From: Diphasiastrum complanatum
Lineage: Eukaryota; Streptophyta; Lycopodiopsida; Lycopodiales; Lycopodiaceae
Direction: 5' to 3'
Length of the DNA stretch: 64,000 nt
NCBI GenBank assembly: GCA_029204225.1
Contig: CM055097.1
Location: 13,006,721-13,070,720 of the forward strand
Shown here piece after piece: positions 4,655-51,300 of this stretch (position 1 is its first letter; every line of letters begins with the position of its first letter). The notes beneath the pieces are model-generated. The model was not told where the DNA came from. It searched no databases and saw only the letters and a list, made by a program, of their open reading frames with translations. The translations under genes and the position numbers were made by a program.

Positions 4655-7600
4655 GTAAAACATATCACTTTTTCCACTTTTGATTGGTTTTTGGTCCTTG
4701 AAGCATCCTTCACAATGCGTGGTTTTATATGGAGACATATATCTTAATGTGCTTCATGCCCAAATGATAGATTTGATTAGTACATCCAAATGGTAATATC
4801 ATCATGAGACACTTCATTGCATTCTAAAAGAGAAGTATAACTTGCACTAAAAATTGAACTCATTTACTATATGATAAGTTGATCATAAGCTCCACATGCA
4901 TGAAATTCAATGTCGCAGACATGCTCGCAAAAAGATGTAAGCAAATAGAGGATAACCCCTAAGATGAGGATAGGAGAACACAATAGAAGAGACTATGGAG
5001 CCAAACCGCCCAACCAATCCTAGATCAAACCTAGATCTAGCCCCCAAGCCATGCCATGTGAAGCAAGAGGAGAAGAGAGAAACTGGTAACCTAAAACCCA
5101 ATATGTCGACGGGAGAATCCCTACCTCATTATATAGAGAGTAGAGAGTGTCTGGGTCCCCTCAAGGTTATTAGTCACAAACTGGCCTCGACATGGAATTA
5201 AATCTCGGCGTGACCAATAATCTTGAACACTTGAGGGCCGATCTACCATATTAGGACTATGCCAGGTCCTTAACCGAATATGGCAATAACATCTGCAAAG
5301 CTGCTTATCATTTTACTGATTTTGTTGACAGGTGGTGGCACAAGTCATTGAAGTCCAATCAGGCTCCTTCCACCTGGGTTGATGTCAAACGAGCTTTTGA
5401 TGCTCAGTTCATTCCTCCACATGAACATGTACGTGTGATGGATACTAGGTTTTAATTGTCAGAGGTGGTACACAATGCAGAAATATACGATAAGTATATG
5501 GAAGTGCTTATTAAGATACCAGAGGAGATTCTTCAATGGCTCGTGGTGCACAAGTTCATCTTTGGCCTTCGTGAAGAGTTGAGACCTTCATTGTTTAATA
5601 AAGGTTGCAAAACTTTGGAAGAGGCAATTGTAACAATGGTCAACTTTGAAGGAAATGTGCGCAACAAGACTGAATCTGGAGTGGCAAGTTGGCCCCAAAA
5701 GAAGGGTTCACAATTGTCCGGCCAAGCTAATCAGAAGGCTTTTTTCAAAAGGATCCCATCCAGATGCAGCAACTTTGAAGCGCAAGTCGACATCTCCTAT
5801 GGCTCGTCATGCTTATGACAAGTCTCCCCTCACTCCAGAGCAAAAGGATAAGGCCAAGAAAGATGAATTATATATTTTTGTCATAGTAAGCATCTTTTCA
5901 AGCATATTCCCCGACACAAGTGCAAGAAGTTCCATGCATTACAACAACGTCAAGATGAGGGCAAGGATGAGAAAATTTTGGTTGACAATAGTAGGCAACA
6001 ATGAGGACACTAGACATGTCATGACTGTCTTGGTGGGGAAGATTGCTCCAGAGACACTCGGTTGCTTTTTGTCCACCAAGACACGTGAAGCCTATCAATT
6101 TCCAGATACTGAGCTAATACGCATGAGGGAGAAGTTGGAAGGTCATGATGTGCTTGTCTTATTTAACATGAGTTCCTTACATAATATTATTGATTCACAC
6201 ATGGCGAAGTAGTTTGCTTAGCTATTGTTCCTTCTGATTACCGCTATACAATTGAGATGCTAGATGGTAAGGGAACAGAGGTTTGGGATAATAGAATCTC
6301 TTGGGCATCTTTCCTATTCAGACATATGTCGAGAAGTTAGAATTTGGGATCACTATATTAGCTAAGTTTGATATTGTACTTGGTAAGCAGTGGGATGTGA
6401 GTGCGTAGGCCGCTATAAATTTCACTTTGCATGTGTATAGATTTAGACATGAGGGTATGTCTAGTGTCCTAAAGGGGGAGAGACCATCTATCGAAGGTCC
6501 TCTTATCACCTATATGCAAATAAAGAGAATGGACTTGCAGTATTTGTGGTTGTGTTATGTGAGTGTTGATTCTAGTTTTGACAGCAATCAAATAACCATA
6601 CTAACGATCCACATGCAACTTCATCTATTTTTGCATCTTCTAGAGCACATGCATCTGGATTACAGCAAACATTCAGCAAGTGAGCTACAGAAGTCCATCC
6701 GCGCTCAATTTAAACATATATTAATCAGCGACATGCCAGAGGGATTGCCATCTAGAAGGAATGTTGAGCATTGTATTGAGCTCATTCTAGGTGCAAGTTC
6801 TATATGTAAGCCTCCTTATAGGATGAGCCTGAAAGAGGATGACGAAGTCAGAAGGATGTTGGAGGAATATTTTAAGATGTAGTATGTCCCTCCCAGTTAT
6901 TCACCCTTCATCTCTCCTATTTTAGTTGTTAAGAAAAAGGATGGTAGTTTTTGGATGTGCGTTGATGACAAGGGATTGAATAAAATCACTATAAAGCACA
7001 TATGTTCGATACACATGATTGATGATCTACTGGATGCGTTGCAGGGTGCAACAATTTTCTATAAGATAGATCTCAAGTGGGTACCATCATTAACAGATTC
7101 GAGATGAAGACGTCCTGAAGAAGACCTTTTGAACCCGTTTTGGGCATTATGAATTTTTTGATTATGCAGCAACCACAACGTGACTATATGGGCAACTTTG
7201 TCATCAATTTTGTTGACGATATATTGGTCTATAGTAAGGCAGTAGTGGAGCATGAAATTCATGTCCAGACCATATATGGCAAGTTACAAGCTTCTGCTCT
7301 GTATGCCAATGCTCAAAAGACCGAATGGTGTAAGACTCGTTTCAAGTATTTGGGTCGCATAGTGATAGCTGAGGGTATTACGGTTGACCCAACCAAGGTG
7401 GCTGCGATTAAGAACTGGCCAAGGCCTATCAATATATACCAGTTGCAATATTTTTTGGGCTTTTGTAAGTTCTACCAGAGGTTCGTTAGGAACTATTCTT
7501 GGGTAGTTGCTCTTTTAACGGACTAGTTACAGAAGAACAACACTATAGTTCGATGGAGTGTTGAAGTTCAACACAATTTCGGTGGCCATGGCTCCAGTTC

Positions 7601-10600
7601 TCAAGATTGTTGCTAATCAAACACCGTTTGACCTAGAGACAGATGCTAGTGGCATTGTCATAGGTGCAATGTTGAGCCAAGAGGGTAAAGCAATAGCCTT
7701 TGAGAGTAAAAACTTGACACCAGCTCAACAAAGATATTCCACACACAAGCAGGAGCCATATGCAATCATACATGTGCTCAAGGTGTGGCAACATTACTTA
7801 TACTACCCCAAGTTTTATGTGTACACTGTACACAAACCATCATACTTTGAAGATCATAAGGAGCGACAATTGCAAAATCATCTCCTCCAAAAGTATCCAA
7901 TGACTTGGAAAGGGCATCCATTGTCAAATGCTACCTACGAGGCGCAACAATGTTTGCAAAAGTCTTACCCGAAGTTTGTCATCGAGGACTGATGACTTGC
8001 CAGAGAAGGGAAGGATTGTTAGTTTGACTCTAGCATGACCTCGGGAGTCAGCACGGCCAATTGCCAGAGAGGGCATGAGGCCAAGTATTGGTGAAGGCCA
8101 GTAACCAAAGTGGTCAGTGTTCGCAAGTCACATGTGACATGCATGCAAGGTGGACTATTCACCCACAGTTGGATGCCATGTGCCAGGTGACAGGAATAGC
8201 AGGTAGGACTCATAGAGGGGGTGGGAGGTTGATTCTACACACCAGCCTTTTAGTTTCAAAATCTTGGAGAGAGGTTTGAAACAATGATCACATCGGAGCA
8301 CTTGGAGTTACATCCCGGTTAGAAGTGCTGAGTTCTCAAAGGAGGTTTGGAATTGGAATTTGTTAATTCTTGGAGCTCTTCAAAATTGTTGGTAATGTGC
8401 CTATCGTCATGTTTTAATTTTGAAGGAGAAGCTGAGAATTAGTCTTGTAATTTCATTCTGAATTTTCTGGTTTTTGAGAAGAATTCCAATTCATGTTTTA
8501 TGATTTGCAAGTGTGAATCATTTGGCTTGTTGCTTGGACTCACATACTTTGGAGATTTGGATAGATGCAAGTTATGTTTGGTGGTAGGATTCATGCATGA
8601 CTAACTTTGTTTAATGGTTGATTCATGAAAATCAATTTTTCCAGAAGAATTAAACTATTAGTGATGCTGTTACATGAATCTATTTACAGCCAAAGTATAA
8701 CAAGGTGTGAACTGCAATTCTGTCATTTCTCTAGATAGTTGTTGAGAATAAGCTGTTTTGTAGTTGAATCCTGCAAACCAGGCCATTTCATCAGTATGAT
8801 TCCTAGTTTTCTTGGATAAACTGTGAAGTTTCTGGGGAAAATAGGGACAGGGTATATACTGGTTGAAATACCACATGCATGAGTGTGAGAGGAGCAGTAA
8901 TTCTGGTTAGTGAGCCATTATCAGCGTTTAGGCCTCTTCTTAAGCTCGTTTTTGAGATTTGAAGCCTTGGATTGCTATTGTAAGCCATGAGACAACAGGT
9001 TCTAGCACTGTGGTTGTATTCTCAATTTTTTTGTTTTGCGTAAGAGTTGCAGACAGAGGTCCCAGGTGCTATGTTGGTCTTCAGGCTTTGTTCTGCCTGT
9101 AATGTCAGATTCGAAAACAGTAGGCAGACTGTTGTCTTGTGGTCATTATATTAGGATTATAAGGAATTGTGATGATTCTTAAGTGTGGTGATTAATTCTT
9201 CTTCTATTAATTGAGTAAGAATTCAGATCAGTGTTTTGAATATCTTTACTCCAGAATTATTGAGAACCTATGGATCTCATAGACATTCTCACAAGGAAAG
9301 TTATCTTACTTATGGAGAATTTAATTTATCTAGTGGATGCTATTCTGCTACAGTTTATGGTCTGCAGATGCTTGAGTACAGTTTTTTCTTTTGATTGGAT
9401 CTCCAGTTATTAAAGGGGACAGACAAATCTATTGAGATGAATGGGTGCTATTTTCTTGCATTTGATACTAGAAACAGAAGCATTTAACTCAAGAGTATCC
9501 GAGATACTCAGAGTTGAGTTTTAATCATTCTATATCTTAATGATTCTCCTAGAGATTCTAGTTGAATGAATTATCATATCTTAGAATTATATACTAAGGA
9601 TAGTTGTACTTGGAAGCTTTATATAAATTGTCTGCCAGAGTTTGTGGATGATTTCAGACTGTAATTATTATTATTTTTCTTTAACTTTAGTCTCCTAAGT
9701 TAGGGCATATTTCACTCAGTGGTTCATGTAAGTGTTTTACATGAGGGTCATGTCACTAACTTGTGTTGAGTGTAATTTGTTTGAGAAATTTATTGCTTAG
9801 TGTACTTTTCAAACTTGAGCTGTACTCCAGAACAGAGATTAACAATTGGAAATTGGTTTATCTCTGAGTACTTGTTTGATATGAAAGTCAAACTAAGGAT
9901 AATGGTTTTCTCGGTTACTATTGAAAGTTAAAGGAACTGTTCCTGTAATTCTTTCCTGTTTTAAGGAGCTTCTAAGGATAGAAGCAGTTTATGGAGGGAA
10001 GAATGTTATGGCCATATTCGGTTAAGGACCTGGCATAGTCCTAATATGGTAGACCGGCCCTCCAGTGTTCAAGATTATTGGTCACGCCGAGATTTAATTC
10101 CATGTCGAGGCCAGTTTGTGACTAATAACCTTGAGAGGACCCAAACACTCTTATTGAGACATATGGAGTATTGCATGTCTGTGTGACGGATATAGGCAGG
10201 AGGACTGCATGAAGAGATGTAACCTATTTATAGTTGACCTGCATGGGGATTGCATGGTTAGATGCACATGACTCTACTCTCTATATAATGAGGTAGGGAT
10301 TCTCCCGTCGACATATTGGGTTTTAGGTTATCAGTTTCTCTCTTCTCCTCTTGCTTCACATGGCATGGCGGGGGCTAAATCCAGGTTTGATCTAGGATTG
10401 GTTGGGCGGTTTGGCTCCATAGTCTCTTCTATTGTGTTCTCCTATCCTCATCTTAGGGGTTATCCTCTTGTGGTCATTATAGCGGACTTGCCAGTCGTCA
10501 TCAATTGAGGACCGCTTCAAATCAAAGTATTCTTCCCATTTGTGCAGCCATTGATCTACAACATCAATAGTCCTTTGGGGAGGATTATCGGAAAATCGGA

Positions 10601-21300: not shown

Positions 21301-24300
21301 TCGTACATATCGAATCAACGTGCGAACATCCAAGTCAAGGACTAGGAGTCATTCCTGTGCGCGTTGAATCGATATCAGGTGTACAACCAAGGATATACGG
21401 TTCTATGGTGTGATAAATTTGGAGACAAGTTTTGTGCTCAGATTGAGGTGCATTTAGCTCGCATTTTCAGTCAGACTTGTGTGTCTGTTCTTGTTTAGTT
21501 GAAGATGGCTCAAAATGCATCAAACGTTTTCGGAGTTTTGTCACAAGAAGATAAACTTGATGGAAGCAACTATTCTCTGTGGAGCTTTATGGTTTGAAAT
21601 CTGCTAGGTGCTAGAAATTTTTGGGGCCTTATTATTGGGGATGAAGAACGTCCCATAGATATTGCACCTGCTACTCCTGCTAGAGGTGGTCAATAGACTC
21701 CAACACCAGCTGCTACTGCAGAACAGAAACGATGGGATGCTCGTGATGCTCAAGCTATTGCCCTGATATCATTATAAGATAAGAGGTCCATCATTCCGCA
21801 TATTCGTTCATGCAGCTCTTCAAAGCGTGCATGGTAAGGGCTTGAGACTATGTATCAAGCTAAGAATGAAGCTCGAATTACTTTCTTGAAAAGAGAGTTT
21901 GAGAGACTAGAGATGCATGAAGGTGATAGTATGGCTGATCATCTTACGAAGATTCAAGATCTTCGAGAGCAGTTACCAAATATTGATGAAGTCATCCAAG
22001 AAAAGGAACTTGTTTCGCGAACCTTGCAGTCATTACCGGAGTCTTATCGAAACTTCCATACTTCACTAAGTTTGTCCATGAGGGGTAATCAACAAGCTTT
22101 ACACTTTGAAGAGTTGGTCAGTTTGTTGTGACAGGAAGAGCAGACAAGGAAGAATAAGTCTTCTAATATGCGTGGTAATGATCAAGCATTAGCTGCTAAG
22201 GACAAAAGCAAAGGCAAAGTTAAAAGCCACCAATCTAAGTTCAAGACTAACTCATCTAGCAAAGGGAATAATGATGCTGGTCCATCCAGAAGGAAGGGAA
22301 AGTGTCACTACTGCAAAAAGCCAGGTCGTTACATCGGTGAATGTCGGAAGAGAATTGCCAAGGAGAAAAAGGAGGAGTCTGAATCTGGTTTGGAAGTAGA
22401 TACGTCTACTGTTCCTGCAGGAAAATTTGATGATTCAGCTCATCTTGTTCATGGTGATTGGGCTTTTCTTGTTTGCAGTTATGATGCTTCTCACAGGCAT
22501 TTTTCAGTCAATGTAGATGAAAAACAAGTCATTTGGTATTTTGATAGTGGAGCTTCTAGACATATAACTTCCAAGAGGAATTTATTCAGTAAGTTAGAAG
22601 CTGCCACCAGGAAAGACAGTCACTTGTGCAAACAATCCTTCTTTATCCAGTCAAAGGCATCGGTGAGGTAACACTCACAACAGCTGATGGTTCTGATTTG
22701 TGCATTTTGGAGGTACTATATGTGCCATGGATAAAGAAGAATCTGTTGTCAGTTTCGTCTTTTGCTAAGTCAGGGTATGCTGTTAACTTTGAGGATGACA
22801 GATGCACAGTGAGGGATAGAGAGAAAAATTATGCAATAGTCACTTCTGGTACACTGTATAGTGGCTTGTATCATTTGGATTCATACGAGAGGAGTGAACA
22901 TAATGCTTGTTTAGCTATTTCTACTACTCCAGCTATGCAAGAGGCAGAGTTATGGCATGCAAGGTTTGGACATGTGAACTATGGTAGCTTGATGTTGTTG
23001 CAAAAGCATCAAATGGTGCAGGATATGCCTTATGTGGAGCTGCCACCCAAACGTGTTTGTGTGCAAGGGTCGAAAATGAAGCTGGTTGCAAAATAAATAC
23101 TCTTCGTACAGATAGCCGGGGAGAAAGGCATTAAGCATCAAAGAACAGGTGCCCTACTAGAGCCTTGAAGACCATCACCCCATTTGAAGCTTGGCATGAT
23201 AGAAAACCAAAGGTTGACTATCTAAGAGTTTTTGGAAGTCTTGCATGCTCATGTACCTTCACAAAGAGGCAAGTTGGATGACAAGTCAATTAAGTGCATT
23301 TTTGTGGGCTATAGCATTGAAAGCAAAGGATATCGTCTCTATACTCCAATCAGCCAGAGGATTTTTGAGAATAGAGATGTTGTGTTTGCTGAAAATTCAG
23401 ATCGACCATTGTCTGAATTTAGACAATCATATGTCGGCTCACATGACGTGTTCGAGGGTTTTAATTCCATTGAGTGTCGAAGCAAAAGTGGATCAACCAC
23501 CAATGCTGAGTGGACAACAAGTTAATGTGGAAAATGAACCCATAACACCACATGAAGTGGAAGAAGGAATTCAAGAAGAAAGAACAGCCATAGAAGAAAG
23601 TCAAGAAATGCCTCGTTAGTTAGTGCGTTCATTACAGGAAAGTAAGCTTTCAGGTCCTCTACCTAGTAGGACACGGGCTAGTTCTAGACTTACTTTTGAA
23701 CATGCAGATCTGGCATGTACGAGCAATCTTAATGATGTTGAAGAACCAAACTCTTATGAAGAGGCTATGGAAAATGAGCATTGGCAAGACGCAATGCAAC
23801 AGGAAATTGATTCAATACATAAAAATTGCACTTGGGATCTTGTGGACTTACCTCATGGCCAAAAGGCAATCGGGACAAAATGGGTGTATAAAGTGAAAAG
23901 AATGTTTGATGGTACTCTTGACAGGTACAAAGCCAGACTTGTGGCCAAAGGCTATGCTCAAGAGAAAGGCATAGATTATGATGAGACTTTTGCACCTACA
24001 TCTCGGATGTCCACAATTAGATGTGTTGTTGCATTGGCTGCTCATTATGGTTGGAAAGTGCATCAGTTAGATATCAAAACAACATTTCTCAATGGGGATT
24101 TGCAGGAGGAAGTATATGTGCATCAGCCCATTGGTTTTGAAGTGCCTGGTCAAGAAGACAAAGTGTGTAGGCTTTAGAAAGCTCTTTACGGTCTCAAACA
24201 GGCTCCAAGAGCATGGTATGAGAAGATACACTCATACTTGATCCATGGCTTCAAGAACAGTCCAACTGCTAGCACCCTCTATGTTAAGGAGGATCATGGA

Positions 24301-27300
24301 GTCATTCTTGTGCTCATACTTTATGTTGATGATACTGGGAATAATGAGCAAGCTATTTCAGCTTTCAAAGCTACGTTGGGTAGTTCATTTGAGATTTCAA
24401 ATTTGGGTCTTTTGCATTATTTTTTGGGCATTTATTTTGTGCAATCAGATGAGGGCATTACATTATTGCAATCGAAGTACATATAGAAGCTCTTGCTTAA
24501 GTTTGGATTTCAAGATTGTAAGTCTATATGTACTCCTATAGAAACTGGGGCTAAATTGAGCATACATGATGGAGGAGAGCCTTATGACTTGGGTACGTAT
24601 AGTCAAGCAATTGGATGTATCATCTATTTATGCAATACAAGACCAGATATTCAGTTTAGGGTTTCCCAAGTTAGCAGATTTATGCACAGTCTAGGTACAA
24701 AGCATTGGCAAGCAGTGAAGTGGACCTTTCACTATCTTCAGGGTACTCAAGATCTTGGTTTGTTCTATCCCAGGGGGAAAGCTTGCAGCTTTAAGCTTTC
24801 AGTGATTCATACTGGGTTGGAGATTATGATACACGACAATCTACCAGTGGGAATTGTTTTTTTTTGGAAACTCATGTATATCCTGGTTAAGTAAAAGACA
24901 ACCTATTGTGGCTACTTCTACCTGTCAAGCTGAGTACAGGGCAGTTTTCACTACTACGATAGACTGTGTATGGCTGAGGAGACTATTGACTGTTCTTCAT
25001 ATATGTCAGCAGGCACCTACTCCGATTTACACTAACAGTCAGAGTGCTATGGCTGTGGGACGTAATCCAGTAATTCATGCTCACACCAAGCACATAGAAA
25101 TACATTATCACTATGTCAGAGAAAGGTTGCAGGCTGGAGAAGTTAGTCTATCTTATTGTCCTACACAGGATAATGTTGCAGATTTATTTACAAAGGCATT
25201 ATCTAGAGAAAAATTTGAGATTTTTCGTAAAACTCTAGGTTTATTACCTTGTAAAGGATAATCTACTACCTTGTACATCTTCACACTACCACTACAGGGG
25301 GGATTTTTAAGATTAAAGCGCAACCAACCTACCAATCTCATTGGGCACCTGGAAGAATCAACTAACGTTCACAATCTTGAAGATGGATGCCTTCGATGCT
25401 ATCTTGGGATTAAGCTGGTTTAACGAACACATGGTGGCCTTCTTGGCAAAAGGGGTTAACCTTGTGTTATTATATAATGGCAGGAGACCTTGTGTCGTCA
25501 GAGCTGTGCCAGGGGCCAACGAGAAAGGAACGACACAAATGAACCTGAGCCAACTATCCCTTCTAATCTCATTCACTTCTTTAACGAAGGGCAGCCAACA
25601 GTGACAAGCCAGCTGACACGGGACCAAATGGAGTCAACATTGCTTGCAGTTTCTACATCAAAGGTGAATCCAAGTGCCAATGCAGAGCTCAAGGAGCTCA
25701 ACTTGTGTGACCAAACGAAAGCTCATCTCTTTAATGAAGGACAACCAATAGTGACAAACCAGCTGACGCGAGGTCAAATGAAGCCAACATTGCCTGCAGC
25801 TTCTACATCAAAGGTGGATCCAAGTGCCGATGCAGAGCTCAAGGAGCTCAACCTGGACAACCAAACGAAAAACCTAGAGTCCTAGGGGACTCATCTAGAC
25901 GTACGACAAAAACGACATATCTGTGGCTTAAGAGAGCCGCAAGTACCTTTTTCTTTCGTGTTAATAAAGTAAGCCGCCTTTTTCATCGAAGGGGTGAGCT
26001 TCAGTCTAACATCTAAATGCAGTAGCTTTACACAAGTTTTACGTAAGTGAACTAGATCCACACTTTTCCTGTGCTGAGTGCAAAAAACAATGTTTTTACT
26101 TCTCTTTACAGTTGGTCTCCTTTGGCCGGTGAATCAAGCCCGTGCTCTTGTATATGTGAATAAAGTTTGGCCGGTGAATTAAGCCCGTGCCATGTGTCTT
26201 AAGTTCTAGTTTGGCCCTGATGAGGACATCAGCTTTCTCAAACGAGGGGAGGATGTTGTAAAGCTGACTCGGGTGCACCCAGCGTGCCCTGTAAGACTCT
26301 AAGGGGTGACGCTCCCTAAGGTCCCAGAGCAAGTTAGAACGTCAAGGACTGAGCCTCCGACCTGTTGTGAGCTAGTCAAGTAGTCACAAGTCATGAGCTA
26401 GCTCTGGAGCTCGAGTCATGGCCTAGTCAGGAAGCAAGTTGATTTTGCCGCTAGGACCCGGGACCCATGTTCGGGAGCCAGACTGATTCTGCCAGGTTTG
26501 CCAGGCTTAATCAGCAAAATAAAAACTAAGTCCTAAAAAGCGTGCTTTACCAGAAAGCACTATATTCCAGGACAGAGGGGGTGCGCCGAATCACACCAGA
26601 ACTATAGGGGGAGTTCGGCAGACAGAAACTTGGGCAGCTCAACCAGCGCCAGGAATCCAGTCGCCAGGTCTCAGCTCCCTCTACCAGCACGAGCCAGGCA
26701 CAATGCCCAGCACGTGTTGGTGGCCCCGAGACCGGTCAGTCTATGTATGAATGTAACCTCTTCCAAATTAAATAAAGTTGATCCTTGGGGATGATTGCCA
26801 TTTCGGTTTCGCCTTCGGGACTGGTCCAAGTGGAAGGACCCTTACTACAACCTTTTTGCGTCGCTGGTGTCCAAGGGTCCACGTCACCGAAGTGTGGCTC
26901 GCCGCTATGCTAATTGGTCAGTTTGGCGACCACTATGCCTTGGGTTTCATGTGTGGCTTGTCTTTGCCTTTGGTTACCTTTTGGGGACGGATTCTGAGTT
27001 GGCTTTCAGGTTGGTTGGGATTCCAGTTTTCTTAAGTCTGAATGGTTAAGCTTGTTACGTTTCTAAGTTGCTTTTACGTAAGTGCATGATGGATGAATGT
27101 TAGACTTAAGCGCGTGTTGGGAAAACCGCTCAAGTCCCAGCGCCCTTTGAGGCGCCGGCGCAACAGATTGCCTATGAGGTGCAAAACTCAACGAATCAGC
27201 AATCCTGCCAAGATCTTGACAGCTCTCTGAGGTGGATAACAAATTTCACTAAGATGGATAGAGGCAAAATGAATCGGAACTGACACAAAACATTGAAAAT

Positions 27301-36300: not shown

Positions 36301-39300
36301 TGACGTACGGGCAAGAAGCTCCATGTTATGCAACGTCAAGATGAGGGCAAGGATGAGGAAATTTTGGATGATTTGTTGGTAAGTGAAGATGAGGACACTC
36401 ATCGTGTCATGACTATTTCGGTGTGGAAGCTTGTTCCAGAGTCACCAGTTTGTTATTTGTCCACCAAGGTGCGTGAAGCTTATGAGTTTCCAGATAGTGA
36501 ACTGATACGCATGAGAGGGAAGCTGGAAGGTCATGACTTGCTCGTCTTATTTGACACCGGTTCCTCGCATAATATTATCAATTCTCGCGTGGTGAGGAAG
36601 TTTCGCTTAGTTACTGTTCCATCTGATTACCGGTATATTGTTGAGATGCCAGATGGTAAGGGAACAAAGGTTTGGTATGAAAGAATCTCTCGGGCGCCTT
36701 TGTCTATTCTATATCGAGAAGTTAGATTTTGAAATTACTAAACTAGCTAAGTTTGATATTGTACTTGGTAAGCGGTGGCATGCAAGTAAGCAGCCCGGTA
36801 TAGATTTTAAGTCACATGTGTATAAGTTTGGGCATGAGGGTATGTCTCATGTCTTAAAGGGGGAGAGACCATCTGTTGAGGGTCCTCTTGTTACCTGTAT
36901 GCAAATAAAGAGAATGGAGATTCAGTATTTGTGGTTTTGTTATGTGAATGTTGATTCCAGTTTTGATTCTTATGTTGATAATAATCAGATAAGCACACTC
37001 ACTAATAAACCACAAGAAGCTTCATTTACTTTTGCATCCCCTAGTATGTAGGCCTCCTTATAAGATGAGCCTAAAAGAGGAAGAGTAAGTCAGAAAGATG
37101 TTGGAGGAGTATCTCAAGCTGGGGTTACATCCGTCCTAGTTATTCACCTTTTGCCTCTCCTATTTTATTTGTCAAGAAAAAGATGGTAGTTTCCGGATGT
37201 GTGTAGATTACAGAGGATTGAATAAGATCACTGTAAAACATAGGTATCCGATGCCTAGGATTGATGATCTACTGGATTTGTTGCAAGGTGCAACCATTTT
37301 CAGTAAGATAGATCTCAAAAGTGGATACCATCAAATAGGGATTCGAGATGAAGACGTCCAGAAGACGGCCTTCCGAACCCGTTTCGGTCATTATGAGTTT
37401 TTGGTTATGCCATTTGGGCTAACCAATGCCCCAACCACGTTCATGATGCTCATGAATGATGTCTTGCGAGACTATATGGGCAGGTTTGTCGTCAATTTTA
37501 TTGACGATATATTGGTTTTTAGTAAAGCGGTCAAGGAGCATGAGATTCATCTCAAGACCGTATTTGGCAAGTTACAAGCTTCTGCCTTGTATGCCAATGC
37601 TCAGAAGGCAGAGTTGTGTAAGACTTGTGTTGAGTATTTGGGTCACGTAGTGATAGCTGAGGATATCTCTGTTGACCCAACCAAGGTGGTTGTGGTTAAG
37701 AAGTGGCTGAGGCCTGCCGATATACGACAATTACAATCTTTCTTAGGCTTTTGTAAGTTCTACCAGTGGTTTGTTAGGAATTGTTCCTGGATAGCTGCTC
37801 CTCTAACGGACCAGTTACAGAAAAACAACATTGTGGTTCGATGGGATGCTGAAGCTCAACAACGTTTTGAGAACTTGAAGGAGAAGGAGTCTGTGGCCAC
37901 GGCTCCAGTCCTCAAGATTGTAGATACCCAGAAACCTTTTGACCTAGAGACGGATGCAAGTGGCATTGCCGTAGGTGCAGTGTTGAGCCAAGACAAGAGG
38001 GTAGACCAGTAGCCTTTGAGAGTAAAAAGTTGACACCAGCTCAAAAGTGGATACCATCAAATAGGGATTCGAGATGAAGACGTCCAGAAGACGGCCTTCC
38101 GAACCCGTTTCGGTCATTATGAGTTTTTGGTTATGCCATTTGGGCTAACCAATGCCCCAACCACGTTCATGATGCTCATGAATGATGTCTTGCGAGACTA
38201 TATGGGCAGGTTTGTCGTCAATTTTATTGACGATATATTGGTTTTTAGTAAAGCGGTCAAGGAGCATGAGATTCATCTCAAGACCGTATTTGGCAAGTTA
38301 CAAGCTTCTGCCTTGTATGCCAATGCTCAGAAGGCAGAGTTGTGTAAGACTTGTGTTGAGTATTTGGGTCACGTAGTGATAGCTGAGGATATCTCTGTTG
38401 ACCCAACCAAGGTGGTTGTGGTTAAGAAGTGGCTGAGGCCTGCCGATATACGACAATTACAATCTTTCTTAGGCTTTTGTAAGTTCTACCAGTGGTTTGT
38501 TAGGAATTGTTCCTGGATAGCTGCTCCTCTAACGGACCAGTTACAGAAAAACAACATTGTGGTTCGATGGGATGCTGAAGCTCAACAACGTTTTGAGAAC
38601 TTGAAGGAGAAGGAGTCTGTGGCCACGGCTCCAGTCCTCAAGATTGTAGATACCCAGAAACCTTTTGACCTAGAGACGGATGCAAGTGGCATTGCCGTAG
38701 GTGCAGTGTTGAGCCAAGACAAGAGGGTAGACCAGTAGCCTTTGAGAGTAAAAAGTTGACACCAGCTCAAAAGTGGATACCATCAAATAGGGATTCGAGA
38801 TGAAGACGTCCAGAAGACGGCCTTCCGAACCCGTTTCGGTCATTATGAGTTTTTGGTTATGCCATTTGGGCTAACCAATGCCCCAACCACGTTCATGATG
38901 CTCATGAATGATGTCTTGCGAGACTATATGGGCAGGTTTGTCGTCAATTTTATTGACGATATATTGGTTTTTAGTAAAGCGGTCAAGGAGCATGAGATTC
39001 ATCTCAAGACCGTATTTGGCAAGTTACAAGCTTCTGCCTTGTATGCCAATGCTCAGAAGGCAGAGTTGTGTAAGACTTGTGTTGAGTATTTGGGTCACGT
39101 AGTGATAGCTGAGGATATCTCTGTTGACCCAACCAAGGTGGTTGTGGTTAAGAAGTGGCTGAGGCCTGCCGATATACGACAATTACAATCTTTCTTAGGC
39201 TTTTGTAAGTTCTACCAGTGGTTTGTTAGGAATTGTTCCTGGATAGCTGCTCCTCTAACGGACCAGTTACAGAAAAACAACATTGTGGTTCGATGGGATG

Positions 39301-42300: not shown

Positions 42301-45300
42301 GGTGTGTTAGGCCCGCCATGTCTATGGACCGTGCCGGGGCACACTACTCACACTGTCTTACCCTGTTAGACGTGTACGCTGGACACGCCCTTGACTGTGG
42401 TATCTGACCTCCTGAGTCCCCTAGGGTTCGGTACTGGTTATAGGCTCGTAACACTCTGGCACCCAGACGAACTCCTTTCCCTTCCCCTTAAGAAGATTTG
42501 TCATGGGAATTGCTATCTGAGCATAATCCTTGACAAATTGTCTGTAGTATCCCGAAAGGCCAAGAAAGACCTAAATGTTTGAAATATTGTGTGGTTTAGG
42601 CCAACTAAAAATGGCTCCCATCTTTCGAGATAATATGGCACAAATATGCTACTTCTTCTCACATTTAGGTTTTTTTGCGAATAGCTTATGGTTTCTAAGC
42701 AAATGGAACACCTTTTTGAGGTAAGCCAAATGCTCTTTTTTAGTTTTGCTGTAAACTAAAATATATTCTAGAAAAACTACCACAAATTTCCCTAAATATG
42801 GCCAGTGTTTCATCACGGACCTAAAAGTCGCTGGAGCATTGGTGAGTCCAAATGGCATCACCTTAAACTCATAATGACTGTGACGAGTTTTGAAAGCTGT
42901 TTTCAGGATATCTTCTGCCTTAATACGGACTTGATGATACCTCGAACATAGATCCATTTTACTAAAATATCTATCCCCATCGAGCTGATCAAACAACTTG
43001 TCTACCTGAGGGATAGGGTATAGGTGCTGCCCAAGGTGAACTGCTTGGTTGAATTTGCCCTTTATTTAGATATTTTGTTAGTTGTTTGGTTATTTCCTTA
43101 TCTTCTTAGCTATGGATGCTGTACTGGATACTAAATTAATGGCACGATCTACTTCTCTACTGGGTGGCAAACCACTAGATAAATCATCAGGAAAAACATC
43201 GTCATACTCATTCAACAGAACATCTAAATCTTTACTTTTATGAAATACATTATTGAAAACAGAGTCATTAACTGCAAGTCACAAAAAAGTACCTCATGCA
43301 CTACCATAAGCTAGATAAGCTCTGAGCTACACACCAAAGGACTGTTGGGAACTCCATGCTTCCTATGCAGGTGAACCTCCTGACCGTTTTTTTGAAAGCT
43401 AAGGGTATTATCCTGATGATTCCTTTGGAGAGTGGGGCCCAAACTGTAGAGCCAATCTCTCCCTAACACGAGGTCGGTACGGTCCAGATGCACGATCTAT
43501 GCTATGTCCACGTCCTGTATATAGGATTCGGCATAGTCCTAAACTTGGATACACGGTACTCCAGTACTCGAGATTATTGGTTACGCCTCGTTATTCTGAA
43601 CTAGGCCAGAAACCTAGAAGCCCGTTCTGACCCTTTTGGGTCGGAACGTCCTGTACGTTCCGGAACGAACTGGGTCAGAACGTTTTAAGGAAAAAAAAAC
43701 CAGGTATCAAAGTGCCACCTGCTGGCTGTGAAAGATTTCAGATCCTTAAGATCCAATCTACTTGAATGATCTTTGGTTAGAAAGAGAAATACACTACCAA
43801 TTTCACCAATGTAAAAAAATCAGCATCTACACACAATTTGAGATGCAAACACTAATAGAACTTGATCAAACTTGAATGAAATGATTATGTACTGTTGCTG
43901 TCCGTACAAAACCAGCAAGCTACTGTATTTCACACGTGTGGATCCAAAAATAGCAAATATAGATCATTTTAGACATAGAATTGCAAGCAATCACCAAGAT
44001 ATTGCACCAATGGATAGTAGAACCCAAGAAAACCATGTATAAGCATGAAATGAGATAGAGAAGAGAGAAGATGATTCTCTCCACGAGTTACATCCTTTTA
44101 TAGCAGGTTCAAACCCTATTTGGCCACTTGGCTTTCCCACCAAAATGCTAACCCTACCAATTTTGGGTCTAGATTCAATGTACCCAACTTATTCAAATTG
44201 AATCTACTCAAACTCGCATTCTATCTTTCCCACACTTTCAAAAAGTGTTTATTCAAATGAAATTTAGACTAATGAACTTTGAAAAGTCAACCTCTAAGTC
44301 TAAAACAAGTTTTGGCCTCAATATGCCAAATATGAAAATATTGCAAAATGTGATGAAACTAGTTGAATCTTTCACAATCCCTCTTCAACTAGTTTTAGCA
44401 TAGACTTTGATAATACTCCAAGTGAAGTCCTATGTTCCATGAACAAGTCTTTTCCCAATGCTTTGGTGAAGATATCAGCTACACATTCCCTTGAAGACAC
44501 ATGTTGAAGCTCCACCTCCTTTGCAATGACTCGCTCCCTCACAAAATGATATTGTATCTCAATATGCTTGCTCCTAGCATGAAAGATAGGATTGGATGCC
44601 ATTCTTTGGGCTGATTGATTGTCACAAAAGATGATTGGGCTCTCTGAAAAATCCAGCAAGTGAAGATCCTTGATCATCCTCTTGATCCATACCATCTCCT
44701 TTGTGCAATGTGTAAGAGCTTTGTACTCGGCCTCACTAGATGACAATGAGATAGTGGCTTGTTTCTTTGACATCCATGATATAGCTCCATCACCTATGAA
44801 AATACAATAAGAACTAATGGATTTCCTATCCATTACATCTCCAGCATAGTCCGAATCTGAAAATCCAAAAAGATTAGGTGACGATCTCTCATACAATATG
44901 CCAAAATCTCGAGTTCCAATGATGTACCTCAAAACTCGCTTTCCTAGCTTCCAATGCTCCTAGCATAGTTTTTGCCAATAGAACTTTGATCCATCATAAG
45001 AATGATCTTCTTCCTAAGAATAGATCTCCTTTCAATGATCATGTAATGCTCAAAATAGAAACAACCATAATTGATATAGCGAATAGTGTCCACTTGGGAT
45101 GCTTCACTATTTCTTACATCAATTTTACATATCAAGATGTGACTAGAACATGAAGAATCAATTAGAATGTAAATGAAATGATTCCACCATGCTTCCAACT
45201 CTGAACTCTCTGGAAAAATACAGCAAACAAACAATAAATGTGAGTGATCAACTTTTGCTTGCATGTCTCCTCCTCCTTTGTCCTTTGTTGCCTTGTATCC

Positions 45301-48300
45301 ACCATGATACTCCATGAATGAGCCTCCATCTTCATCTTGCCACAAGAAACCATCAAACCTTGGAAATCCATGAGTAGGTGAGTACATTAATGATGCAAAT
45401 CCAGCACCACATGACTTCATAAACCAAGTAGTTTGCACTAGTCCATCTTCAAAATCTACTTGACACAAGAAAATGACCATGAATTCACCAAAAATTGACA
45501 ATCTCCAAGTATTGGCACCAAGTAGCTCAACACTTGAGAACTTAGCCATGGATGAGTGACATAATGAACCTCCCATAGCTTCATTTCCATCAGCAAAATC
45601 AGCCAAGAATGCTAATACAAATCCAACATCAAAACAATGCTCACCAATGTAGCTAGTTTTACCATATCTTGACAATTTGCACACATCCACATGAAATTGC
45701 TCAAACATGAGATAGAACAAGTAAAGTAAACTTGAACAACACTTCCTTGCTGCTCCTTTGACCTTACTTGAGTCTTCAATATGCTGCAAAAACAGATCCA
45801 TAACACCTTTGCCAATCACCTCTCCTTTGATGTTCTTGACTAGCTCCAAATTGCCAACTTCCCTTTTGACTAGTTGAAGCGCTTTGAGATCAACCTCTTG
45901 ATCTTCAACTTGACCATCAAAGTTATTGAACAAAATTTGTTTTCCAGATCCATTACTTGATTTTACAGCAAGATAACATCCATCCACTTGCATAGCTCCA
46001 TGTACACAAGAAGATCTTCCAAAAGATGTTCCACTCTTCATAAGAGATCGATACTCAAGATCCATTGCTTGGATCCACTCCTCTTCTTTCCTTGCTTGAT
46101 CTACACTTGTAGGCTCATCCAAAGAGGTTAGGAAAGTAGCATAATTTCCAGAAACTACTTGCTTACCCTTTTGATCATATGTGAGCCTTGAAGGTACTTG
46201 TCTTTCTCTTGATGTTCTCCTTGGCTTTTGACTTGATGAAGGTCCATCATCACCACCATCCAAAGTAGGATCCTTCTCATCAACATCAAGAATGTTAGAT
46301 CCATCTACTTTACCATCAATCATGCTTGAAGACACCTTTGGAATGTTTCCCTCATCAAAAATGACATCTCTACCAACAATCACTTTGTTAGTAGAAGGAA
46401 TGTAAACCTTGTAGGCTTTACTCACCTCACTATATCCAACAAAAATACCTCTTCTTGAAGATGGATCCTCCTTGGTCCTATCATCAAGAGTAATGTTGAC
46501 ATAGCATGTGCATCCAAAGGTTCTTAGAAAGTTGACACTCGGCCTCCTCTTGAATAGCATCTCAAAAGGTGTCCTTCCATCCAAAATAGCACTCGGCCAC
46601 CTATTGCACAAGAAATTGGCACACAACAAAGCTTGATCCCAAAATGGTTTGTCAAGATTAGCACTTAACCTCATAGCTTTAGCACTTTCACATAAAATCC
46701 TATTCTTCCTTTCAGCCACTCCATTTTGTTGTGGGGTCCTTGATGTTGTATACTCCCTCTTGATTCCATGCTCATCACAAAAAGCCTTGAACTTGTTAGA
46801 TATGTACTCACCACCATTGTCACCTCTCAAGCACTTGATCTTTGTGGAAAATTGGTTCTCCCTTGCATTCTTGAACTTGACAAAGACATCATACACTTCA
46901 TCCTTGCTCTTTAGTAGATAGATCCAACAAAATCTACTAAAATCATCAATGAATGTTACATACATCTTAGCTCCACTATTGCTAATTGTACTAAATCCAT
47001 GAATATCCGGATGTACAAGTTGAAAAGGCTTTGTAGATTTAGAAATAGATCTAGTATAAGGTAGTCTATGTGACTTAGACAAAGCACAAGACTCACAAAC
47101 ATGTTTGTCATTACTTAAGGAACTTGGAAGACCAATCACAACCTTCTTCCTTGCCATTACCTCCAATGACTTGAAGTTGAGGTGTCCCATCCTTTTGTGC
47201 CAAACCTTTTGAATAAAAATTTGCTCCCTTGCAACACATCCAACTTGGTTAGTAATAACACAAGCATCAAGTTTGAACAACTTCCCTTGCCTTTTACCTT
47301 TTCCAATCAAGACATCCTTCCTTTTGATCAAACAAGCATCTCCATCAAACTCCACCTTGAGGCCCTTACTTAGCATTTGACTCACACTAAGCAAATTCTT
47401 GGTAATAGATGGAATAAACAAGACATCCTCCAAATGAACATTCCTATTTGTAGAGAGAGAAATAGGAATTGTGCCAATCCCTTTGATTGCACACTCACCA
47501 TCATTGGCCGTATAGATCACCCTCTTGTTATCTCCATATGCCAACAAAGAAGTGAAGTACTCTTCGTGAAAGGTCATGTGTGAACTTGCTCCACTATCAA
47601 TCCACCAAGGATCTAGATCTCCATCATTAGCAAGCATACATGAAGACATCACAAAAGCATCATCATTTGCATCTTGCACATTCAAACCATCTTTATCAAG
47701 AGTAAGATTACCTTGCTTGTCTCCTTGATCTCTCTTCTTCTTGTAGCATTCACTTGCAAAGTGTCCTTTGATGCCACAATAGAAGCACTTGAGCTTTGAT
47801 CTATCCTTCTTTTTGTCACTTGATTTTGCCCTTTAGACCACTTGCTTTTGGTTTTGCCCTTGAATTTTCCCTTTGTGAACATAGCATCCTCTTGAAGTGT
47901 CGATGTAGATCCACCTCTTGCTTGAAGCCTATATTCCTCATTGATCAAGATCTCTTGAAGATCCATCAAACTTGGCAAAGTCTTTTGAATAGCAATACTT
48001 TGAACAATGTTAGCATGAGCATCCAACAAGCCATTAAGAATCACTTGAATAAGCTCTCCTTCCTTAATGCTTTCATCTATGCAAGCTAACTCATCATTCA
48101 ATGCTTTCATTCTCAAAACAAAAGTACTTGGACTTTCTTTATTCTTTTGCAAACAAGAAAAGATTTGCCTTCTTAGAGTCAACACTCTAGAAGTAGACTT
48201 GGATTCATAAAGCTTCTTCAATGAATTCCAAGCTTCCAAAGATGATGTGCACTTACCAACTTCCTTGAGAAGTTCATTGGTAATATTCATCTTTATCATG

Positions 48301-51300
48301 TGTAGAGACTTCTTGGCCCTCTTGTCATACCTCAATTGATCTTGTTGTGTTGCTGGTCTCTCCTCCAAACCTACAACAATATCCAAAACATCATTCATCT
48401 CAAGAAGTGACTCCATCCTCATTTTCCACAATGAATAGTTACTTGAGGTAAGCCTATCATTGGCTTCCAACATGACTCCAATTGAGGTTGCCATGTAGCA
48501 ATGACCTGATCTTCTCTTTCAACCTGTTTCAATGCACAAAGCACTCCTTTGAACAACAACAGATGCTTTCAAAAGAAATCACCAAGATTTGAAACTATCT
48601 CACAAATTCTCTTCTAACACTTATCCAAGCAAATCAACATATAGAATCATGGAATCTTGATCAACCTATGATCTATCCTCAATCTAATGACTTTTGCCAC
48701 TTCCTAAGATTGAAACACACTCAAATGAAGTCCAGCAACCTCACTATTTAGAGATCCAATCAAAATTCGGGTTTTGACAAAATCACAAAAAATTGACTAT
48801 TCCAAATCTACATGCAAATGCTGAAAATTTGATATGCAATCTATAAGCCACCACTTAGGCTGAACCAATGATCCAAAAATCGGCCAAATCCAGCATGTGA
48901 ATTCAAAAAACGGAATTGAACAAGTATATTGACCTATTTAGTGTTTTGATCTACAAAAGATCCAATCTACAAAAGCAAAAAATCCGATTTTGGTGTAGAA
49001 TCCTCTCTAGCATGCTCTAGACTTGATATCTTCACCAAATCATTGATAGATCTGATTTCCTCCTTCATAACTTGAAACACAAGCTCTGATACCATGTGAA
49101 AGATTTCAGATCCTTAAGATCCAATCTACTTGAATGATCTTTGGTTAGAAAGAAAAATACACTACCAATTTCACCAATGTAAAAAAATCAGCATCTACAC
49201 ACAATTTGAGATGCAAACACTAATAGAACTTGATCAAACTTGAATGAAATGATTATGTACTGTTGCTGTCCGTACAAAACCAGCAAGCTACTGTATTTCA
49301 CACGTGTGGATCCAAAAATAGCAAATACAGATCATTCTACACATAGAATTGCAAGCAATCACCAAGATATTGCACCAATGGATAGTAGAACCCAAGAGAA
49401 CCATGTATAAGCATGAAATGAGATAGAGGAGAGAAGATGACTCTCTCCACGAGTTACATCCTTTTATAGCAGGTCCAAACCCTATTTGGCCACTTGGCTT
49501 TCCCACCAAAATGCTAACCCTACCAATTTTGGGTCTAGATTCAATGTACCCAACTTATTTAAATTGAATCTACTCAAACTCGCATTCTATCTTTCCCACA
49601 CTTTCAAAAAGTGTTTATTTAAATGAAATTTAGACTAATGAACTTTGAAATGTCAACCTCTAAGTCTAAAACAAGTTTTGGCCTCAATATGCCAAATATG
49701 GAAATATTGTAAAATGTGATGAAACTAGTTGAATCTTTCACACTGGCCGTGATCTTCCTTCTTGATAATATATTGAGGGACGCTTTATAATGTGTTGAGG
49801 GACGCTACAGATCAGAATTTAGTGTTTAATTTGTCTCCCACTCATTTTAACTACTCTTCTGCTCAAGTCAATTAATTATCCACTCTTGTCAATAGGCCAT
49901 CAAAAAATGTGGACAATCATTAAGGCCCTTTATTTACTCTTTGCCATTTCATAGAACATTCATTGCTTATGAGTCATCCTTACCCTTGTTTGGGTCTTCA
50001 TACACTATGAATAGTGCTCTATGGCCTCATTGAAGTTGGTGATTGTTTAAAGAGTTTTTTCTTACTTCATTGAGTAGCTTGAGAGACGTTTAGCATATGC
50101 ATCTGCTTATATTCTATTTAGCTTGACTATATTTATCATGGATTTAGTTACTGTTCTCCATCAGATTGATGATTGATCTATACATTTGTGATAGTCTATC
50201 TGTGTTCTGTGGTTATGTTTCACTCATAATTTGTGCTTGTATATGTTTTCAGCTTTCAAAATTGGCTTGCAGACCTATATTTTACACAATTGGACTTCAA
50301 TTATCCATCAGTTAAAGATGCAATGGTATGCTTACTAATGCATATGTGTTAAAGTCCTTGATTGTTTACCTGCACTGTTCCTAGATTACATGCTTTGGAC
50401 TTTAATGGTACTTGTAAAGAGGTTATATTCATTTGGCCAATTATCTCTATCATCTTTGATCTTGCCAAGATACCGATAGTGTACTGGAATTTATGCACCT
50501 GACAGCAATAAAATCAGACTTTCAAAAGACTTAGTATCTGTGCTTTGCAGGTACATCATGGATTCTATTCCGCTTATCATAACACCACACTCCAGCCCCA
50601 TATTGTTGCAGCAGTTCAGTCTTTACTCCAGCAAAGGAATGGGTTCTCAGTGATGGTCACTGGACATTCGATGGGGGGAGCTTTGGCTTCCTTTTGTGCC
50701 CTTGACCTTGTTGTAATCCCTCATCTTCATGGAAATCCTCTTTCATATCAATAGGATTCTACATGTTTTCTAATCTTTCACTTAAAGGGGATTATACAAT
50801 GAACATGTTTTCTTATTGTGAGTAATTTCTATGAGAGGGTATTGACCATGTATGTGGATCCAATGCTTTCAGGACTAAAAAGACTTGGAGAAATATATTT
50901 TATTGATTCTTAATCTCACATGGTCATCAGATTTGACCTTAAAATATTTAATGCTTTGACCCTAGACCATTCAGAACAAAAAAGATTTATTGGCAAGCCT
51001 CTGCATAGAAAGAGCCAGGGCATCCTGTAGAAACATGACTTCCTAGAAACAAACATAAAAGTGCAGCCATGCAGTGGACATGGAAGTGGAGCGTCAACGC
51101 AACCTTTCCTGTGCAATAATATCCGACTTGGCTCTCAATCAAGCGTAGATGTAATGGATAGCAATTGCAGGCACCTGAGCAGGACTTGATGATATTGAAA
51201 TCAACCAAACTACAAGGATGTTTTGACTGAAGACAAAGTAGAAGACAGTCCAAGCAAATGCAAATACCCTCAAAGAGTAGTCCAGGACGTAGCTCTACAA

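Follow-up and report, generated by a model that had tools for sequence, protein, structure and literature searches.

How can a retrotransposon multiply through a genome when its reverse transcriptase (RT) has given way to a stretch that resembles no RT? The question is posed by C3, a long terminal repeat (LTR) element of copia type in a 64,000-nucleotide (nt) stretch of the lycopod Diphasiastrum complanatum (assembly GCA_029204225.1, contig CM055097.1, forward-strand positions 13,006,721 to 13,070,720), here called the window, from whose first letter all positions are counted. An original prediction, made from the letters of the window, had described C3 as a young element carrying an unrelated open segment in place of RT, and had offered three meanings for that segment: a captured host transcript, a passenger open reading frame (ORF) in a non-autonomous lineage mobilised in trans, or a lineage-specific gene akin to the envelope-like ORFs of some copia elements. 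The answer we consider probable is that C3 represents a branch without RT within a set of related copia elements, its RT swapped for a piece of a second family, B, and that it spreads by means of RT supplied in trans.

The reverse transcriptase of C3 is replaced by an open segment

Most of the coding capacity of a copia element is present in C3. Pfam matched gag, CCHC, Pol_BBD, gag_pre-integrs, rve and an SH3-like domain, in that order, and a copia pol profile scored 625.6 bits over the integrase part and 247.6 bits over RNase H; for the RT domain, Pfam returned no match in C3. The edges of the gap were placed by aligning C3 with 121 database proteins, mostly copia polyproteins and many without a named source. 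Among the best two-piece matches listed, homology in the integrase frame stops at 46027 in 11 of 15 and at 46033 in two, and resumes in the frame of RNase H at 44956 or 44959 in 13, so that about 295 canonical residues (868 to 1164 of P0013, for example) are absent from C3. What fills the gap is a frame with no stop in 355 codons, the other five frames holding 14, 32, 22, 29 and 25. The predicted replacement of RT by an unrelated in-frame segment is thus borne out, as is the contention that so long an open frame is not random. The assignment of C3 to the Ty1/copia lineage follows from its gag type and domain order, from RNase H lying after the RT position and from the RVT_2 domain that occupies this position in L065, a relative described below.

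Nor is the replacement private to one copy. The segment was searched for in the host assembly (1.74 Gb, 5,176 contigs), where 40 of 3,901 candidates were scored; all 40 cover it at about 98% or more and join it to integrase on the 5' side and to RNase H on the 3' side at the same two points, with small indels nearby in three or four. A private insertion, the outcome against which this comparison had been set beforehand, is not what the genome holds. With RT absent between 46027 and 44956 of the window, and in 40 of 40 rows, C3 is not an autonomous copia. Twenty copies with longer flanks were then read together with the window copy (21 in total) for LTRs and target-site duplications (TSDs). Both LTRs are complete in seven, diverging by 1.85 to 3.54%, and six of these seven have perfect TSDs, five of them different, the near-duplicates L024 and L038 sharing one; the TSD of L036 is off by one base. 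The window copy lies at the lower end of this range, with 12 differences over 648 aligned LTR bases (1.85%, estimated by eye at about 2% in the prediction) and, as predicted, a perfect five-base duplication, GCCAG, on both sides. C3 is a non-autonomous LTR retrotransposon, with independent insertions and no RT. A search of the literature for this element family turned up no paper, judged from the search listings.

A 26-mer spanning the 5' junction occurs at 2,014 genomic sites at up to two mismatches (reversed control, 0), a count that includes assembly duplicates. One copy, L002 (G000:C6), stands about 556 kb from the window copy and is 0.998 identical to it across 4,081 nt, a comparison that takes in the 3' flank, and several further close C3 pairs share a chromosome; such pairs suggest duplicated stretches of the assembly, which inflate copy counts. 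Dropping nine rows that lay less than 0.6% from another left 31 dereplicated copies.

The reading frames of the window copy are offset from one another. Those of gag (47682-48518) and integrase (44944-47832) differ, and the ORF of the segment ends at a stop at 44944 which is kept in nearly all of the 40 scored rows, L014 having a deletion there instead. RNase H (44372-44959) follows in another frame, the two ORFs overlapping by 16 nt (44944-44959), and is a separate ORF in copies where RNase H is whole.

A sister with reverse transcriptase between the same junctions

The search for an RT-bearing sister, which the original prediction had proposed, was successful. A pattern in which the C3 flank is followed by an intact RT start has 28 genomic sites, 15 of which continue as an RT start while 13 read ACATTGTT or ACATCGTT. 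The 1,241 nt read of the sister, L065, span RT (RVT_2, 3.4e-80) and reach into the start of RNase H with no stop on the way. Its identity to the window copy is 98.2% across the 56 nt that end at 46026 and 98.4% across the 305 nt that begin at 44961, and its full RT sits exactly between the C3 junctions, 880 nt separating fixed anchors that are 1,065 nt apart in C3. In the RNase H part its median distance to 31 C3 copies is 0.0197, against 0.0230 among the C3 copies themselves, and its 5' flank (56 nt) is the commonest C3 haplotype, found in 8 of 31. An RT-bearing sister between the same junctions, together with a segment shared with family B, argues that C3 is the RT-less form of an RT-bearing copia.

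Allowing up to three mismatches, the sister's RT-start 26-mer has 1,867 sites, of which 13 are exact; it is the start and not the whole RT that is counted here. An earlier estimate from the 15 of 28 sites, which put RT-less copies at 100 for every RT-bearing one, was dropped after these sites were found. An RT-bearing family that came to light earlier, L064, was set aside as direct sister because the protein identity of its RNase H is 49%.

The junction of the segment also occurs behind a more diverged flank, at 115 sites that overlap the 2,014 given above. Sixteen of the listed diverged-flank sites depart from the C3 pattern by at least three differences, and in one such fragment, adjoining L047, the flank differs from C3 at 16 of 135 positions and the segment at 5 of 103.

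Family B is the only relative found for the segment

What, then, is the segment? Against Pfam it gave nothing above noise (best E 0.16) and against PDB sequences no match at E up to 5, and in a protein search of about 5.8 billion sequences, with 886 candidates scored, its sole match was P0001. The genome search shows P0001 to be a model annotated within a related element of this genome, and it led to a second copia family, B, without a recognisable RT. The search for B scored 150 of 15,727 candidates; open frames of 1,088 to 1,146 codons are present in 15 of the top 20 rows, the ranking being by protein score, which favours open copies. In the three copies read at full length (L047, L054 and L059) the LTR, leader, gag and protease are colinear with C3 at 77-78% nt identity, the family B match over these parts spanning 77-80%. 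After protease comes a region, X, for which two copies gave no Pfam match at E up to 10, and it is the end of X that aligns with the C3 segment, at 83.5-87% nt identity (window 46029-45501 and 45362-44963). Jukes-Cantor distances between C3 and B are 0.12-0.15 in the segment and 0.21-0.24 in the LTR; the segment was thus shared more recently than the rest of the element.

This kinship bears upon the first of the predicted meanings, that a piece of a host gene was captured from a transcript, much as in maize Bs1, and later shared by B and C3. Such a capture would agree with an unbroken sense frame of 355 codons, and with the fact that homology of the segment to RT or RNase H could not be shown. 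We nevertheless regard it as unlikely: the one protein found belongs to an element, the matching sequence is another LTR family, neither Pfam nor PDB offers a match, and the amino acids are unconstrained between C3 and B, although an unannotated host source may be missed by a protein search.

Region X itself preserves an older RT in decayed form. Seven pieces of X, taken from L047, were each aligned semi-globally and with no preset position to a profile of 71 copia polyproteins. A piece of 122 residues falls on the RT palm (z 9.8, 0 of 200 shuffles) and another, of 50 residues, immediately ahead of the integrase core (z 3.4, 0 of 200), and five stay at chance level; against the RT of L065 the same 122-residue piece gives z 7.8 (0 of 400 shuffles). 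The landing on the palm indicates that X holds a decayed RT, in frame and upstream of the shared part. The first part of X scored z 7.0 at its proper place and z 2.1 on a gag decoy, and a local hidden Markov model search for an RT echo in B did no better than shuffled or reversed sequence.

Might the segment, then, be no more than the eroded C-terminus of RT plus RNase H of B, altered beyond recognition, with nothing foreign captured at all? We hold this to be possible though doubtful. In B the part shared with the segment directly follows the decayed RT relic, and the B ORF ends in KLVEEGV (KLVEERV in one copy) adjoining the 3' LTR, an ending resembled by the KLVEEGL of the C3 RNase H ORF. 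Direct comparison speaks the other way: Xc against the RT C-terminus and RNase H reaches only z 1.7 (0.95 with window shuffles), three Xc pieces give z 0.06 to 0.76, and tests against the sister z -1.25 to -0.06, while the C3 segment scores z -0.8 to 0 where the true RNase H of C3 scores 52.

In L052, a further copy of B, about 160 unrelated nt stand in place of about 30 nt of the RT relic (a net change of 129 nt, alignment columns about 1240-1420), perhaps another patch exchange.

An open frame with drifting amino acids

Selection was gauged by the ratio of nonsynonymous (N) to synonymous (S) substitution rates (dN/dS) by NG86 without transition correction; since the expected neutral N/S is about 2.5-2.8, neutral dN/dS by this method is put nearer 0.75. 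Between C3 and B the ratio is 0.25-0.29 in gag and 0.24-0.25 in the CCHC-protease region, and 0.89-1.36 in the segment (48 pairs, eight open C3 copies by six B copies). Within B, L054 and L047 differ by 22.5N:15.5S in gag plus protease and by 57.5N:23.5S in X. N/S is about 1.3-1.4 in gag, and at or above neutral in the segment. Among variants shared by two or more C3 copies, the segment has 38N:9S and one nonsense change (expected 28.9:12.2, p 0.15), integrase 40N:26S, and RNase H 20N:6S and two nonsense changes; at p 0.05 none of the three departs from neutral. Shared variants in the segment had at first looked enriched for nonsynonymous changes, at a ratio of 2.2; without the nine near-duplicate rows the ratio fell to 1.78 (p 0.15), and the excess was discarded. 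The amino acids of the segment drift freely, and at that level it is a passenger.

The frame that holds those amino acids behaves otherwise. The window copy and L047 differ by 130 bases across a segment of 359 codons without a stop in it, where 130 differences placed at random yield 5.3 stops on average (P(0) = 0.0045), a test that leans towards openness because copies were chosen for open frames or by protein score. Internal gaps between C3 and B in the segment are of 9, 174 and 12 nt, with one single base in the last codons (a terminal frameshift). Those in X among seven B copies are of 3, 78, 51, 171, 15 and 9 nt, the 78- and 51-nt gaps being the one replaced patch in L052, which itself contains two stops.

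Two readings turn on this contrast. The first, that the segment encodes a working protein which aids the element, as an accessory or envelope-like factor, could draw on the lack of stops between C3 and B, on a frame that is open in 19 of the 31 dereplicated copies and on L040, in which one ORF of 1,196 codons runs from gag through the segment. We judge it very unlikely. The dN/dS against B and the shared variants within C3 show no constraint, AlphaFold on the segment (14 rows, a shallow alignment, hence weak evidence) returned a pLDDT of 30, and an envelope-like or lineage-specific gene, the third of the predicted meanings, sits poorly with a position inside pol and with the want of any Pfam or PDB match. 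The second, which we put forward tentatively and would not favour, is that in both C3 and B an open frame is selected without selection on its content, RT and spacer being interchangeable cassettes within one recombining population; hundreds of codons would stay clear of stops and frameshifts even as the amino acids change at about the neutral rate and an old RT decays in frame, and the frame would then be kept open by a need for translation through the RNA, for example in escaping nonsense-mediated decay or as a spacer on a Gag fusion.

How the exchange may have come about

In the explanation that we prefer, C3 as the RT-less arm of related copia elements, the RT of an intact copia would have been exchanged for part of an ORF from family B, most likely because the template was switched twice while co-packaged RNAs were being reverse-transcribed; there is a short ACAT match at the 5' switch point. 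The resulting chimera would have retained the LTRs, gag, protease, integrase and RNase H sequence, with RT for its spread provided by RT-bearing relatives. Mobilisation in trans, the second meaning offered by the original prediction, fits a whole lineage without RT beside an RT-bearing sister, and our grounds for inferring it are that insertions are independent, that copies are many and that a near-identical relative has an intact RT. Segment-bearing and RT-bearing elements probably still exchange flanks. The frame perhaps stays open because premature stops expose the RNA to decay or shorten Gag-Pol translation, a speculative suggestion.

Several points weigh against this account. The supply of RT in trans and the direction of transfer, from B to C3, are both drawn indirectly, and L065 was compared in its pol flanks only. 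The closeness of L065 to C3 fits exchange but would also fit a star-like burst from one RT-bearing progenitor. Diverged flanks that share the same junction argue for exchange, on little sequence; if the swap predates the C3 burst, a sister with both RT and C3-like flanks would require recombination.

Feature coordinates and neighbouring elements

The features of the window copy are collected in Table 1, including 12 bases after the 5' LTR which we take to be the primer-binding site for plant initiator-Met tRNA.

Table 1. Features of the C3 copy, in window positions
Feature	Position	Strand	Basis
Copia element C3, whole	43727-49742	minus	LTRs and TSD read
5' TSD, GCCAG	49743..49747		flanks read
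3' TSD, GCCAG	43722..43726		flanks read
5' LTR, 648 nt, TG..CA	49095..49742	-	LTR alignment
3' LTR, 650 nt	43727..44376	-	LTR alignment
Putative primer-binding site, TGGTATCAGAGC	49083..49094	-	bases adjoining 5' LTR
gag ORF, stop to stop; Retrotran_gag_2 and DUF4219	47682..48518	-	ORF list, Pfam
CCHC, protease/Pol_BBD, gag-pre-integrase, integrase core, SH3-like; single frame with segment	46060..47832	-	ORF list, Pfam
Initial RT-domain residues, copia pol homology kept	46027..46087	-	protein matches
RT-replacing segment, 355 open codons	44961..46026	-	frame scan, junctions, B and L065 comparison
RNase H ORF, frame differs from that of segment	44372..44959	-	ORF list, protein matches, profile

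Elsewhere in the window, a second copia lies on the plus strand at 21505-25258, with gag, integrase, RT and RNase H matching database copia polyproteins at 57-72%. At 37314-39065, in what is presumably part of a gypsy RT, three copies recur at a spacing of exactly 726 nt and are 100% alike over the 300 nt compared, which may be a tandem triplication inside the element or an effect of assembly. Two inverted arms of about 350 nt (4947-5292 and 10003-10468), 97-98% alike, stand about 5 kb apart.

Significance and comparison with known systems

Nearly identical retrotransposons of one genome, set apart from each other by a single module that is either RT or spacer, are a natural test set, in which enzyme supply in trans and recombination between packaged RNAs become directly testable. 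Should the frame be kept open for its own sake, they would also test whether RNA decay pathways shape parasitic elements. They urge caution too, since a long open frame inside such an element may be neither a captured gene nor a working protein.

Maize Bs1 is an LTR element without RT. In the part of the literature consulted here it is described as carrying transduced pieces of three host genes (PMC13317346). C3 resembles it in having a foreign stretch within the coding region of an LTR element; the inserts of Bs1, as there described, come from known host genes, whereas the C3 segment is shared with an LTR family, has no host source found and has roughly two thousand junction sites. The grapevine element Vine 1, in the passages cited, is a copia without RT-domain sequence and truncated in its 3' ORF (PMC2576258). 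The likeness is thus a copia lacking RT, and the difference is that C3 has an open stretch in place of RT and keeps its RNase H sequence, where Vine 1 is truncated. Veju and BARE-2 of the Triticeae are chimeric LTR elements attributed, in the sections drawn upon, to template switching between packaged RNAs (PMC13317346, PMC1950507). Those chimeras, so far as described there, concern regions of terminal-repeat retrotransposons in miniature (TRIM) or of LTRs, or fused elements, while in C3 it is RT itself that has been exchanged, inside an open frame. LTR elements of bdelloid rotifers, in the excerpt cited, bear the same types of extra ORF (ORF3) in different retroelement families (PMC5408684). 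The ORF3s described there are additions, several with recognisable enzyme or envelope domains, whereas the C3 segment replaces RT and has no recognisable domain. Envelope-like copia elements of the Sirevirus type carry an extra ORF downstream of an intact pol; C3 is unlike them, for its segment lies inside pol, at the position of RT.

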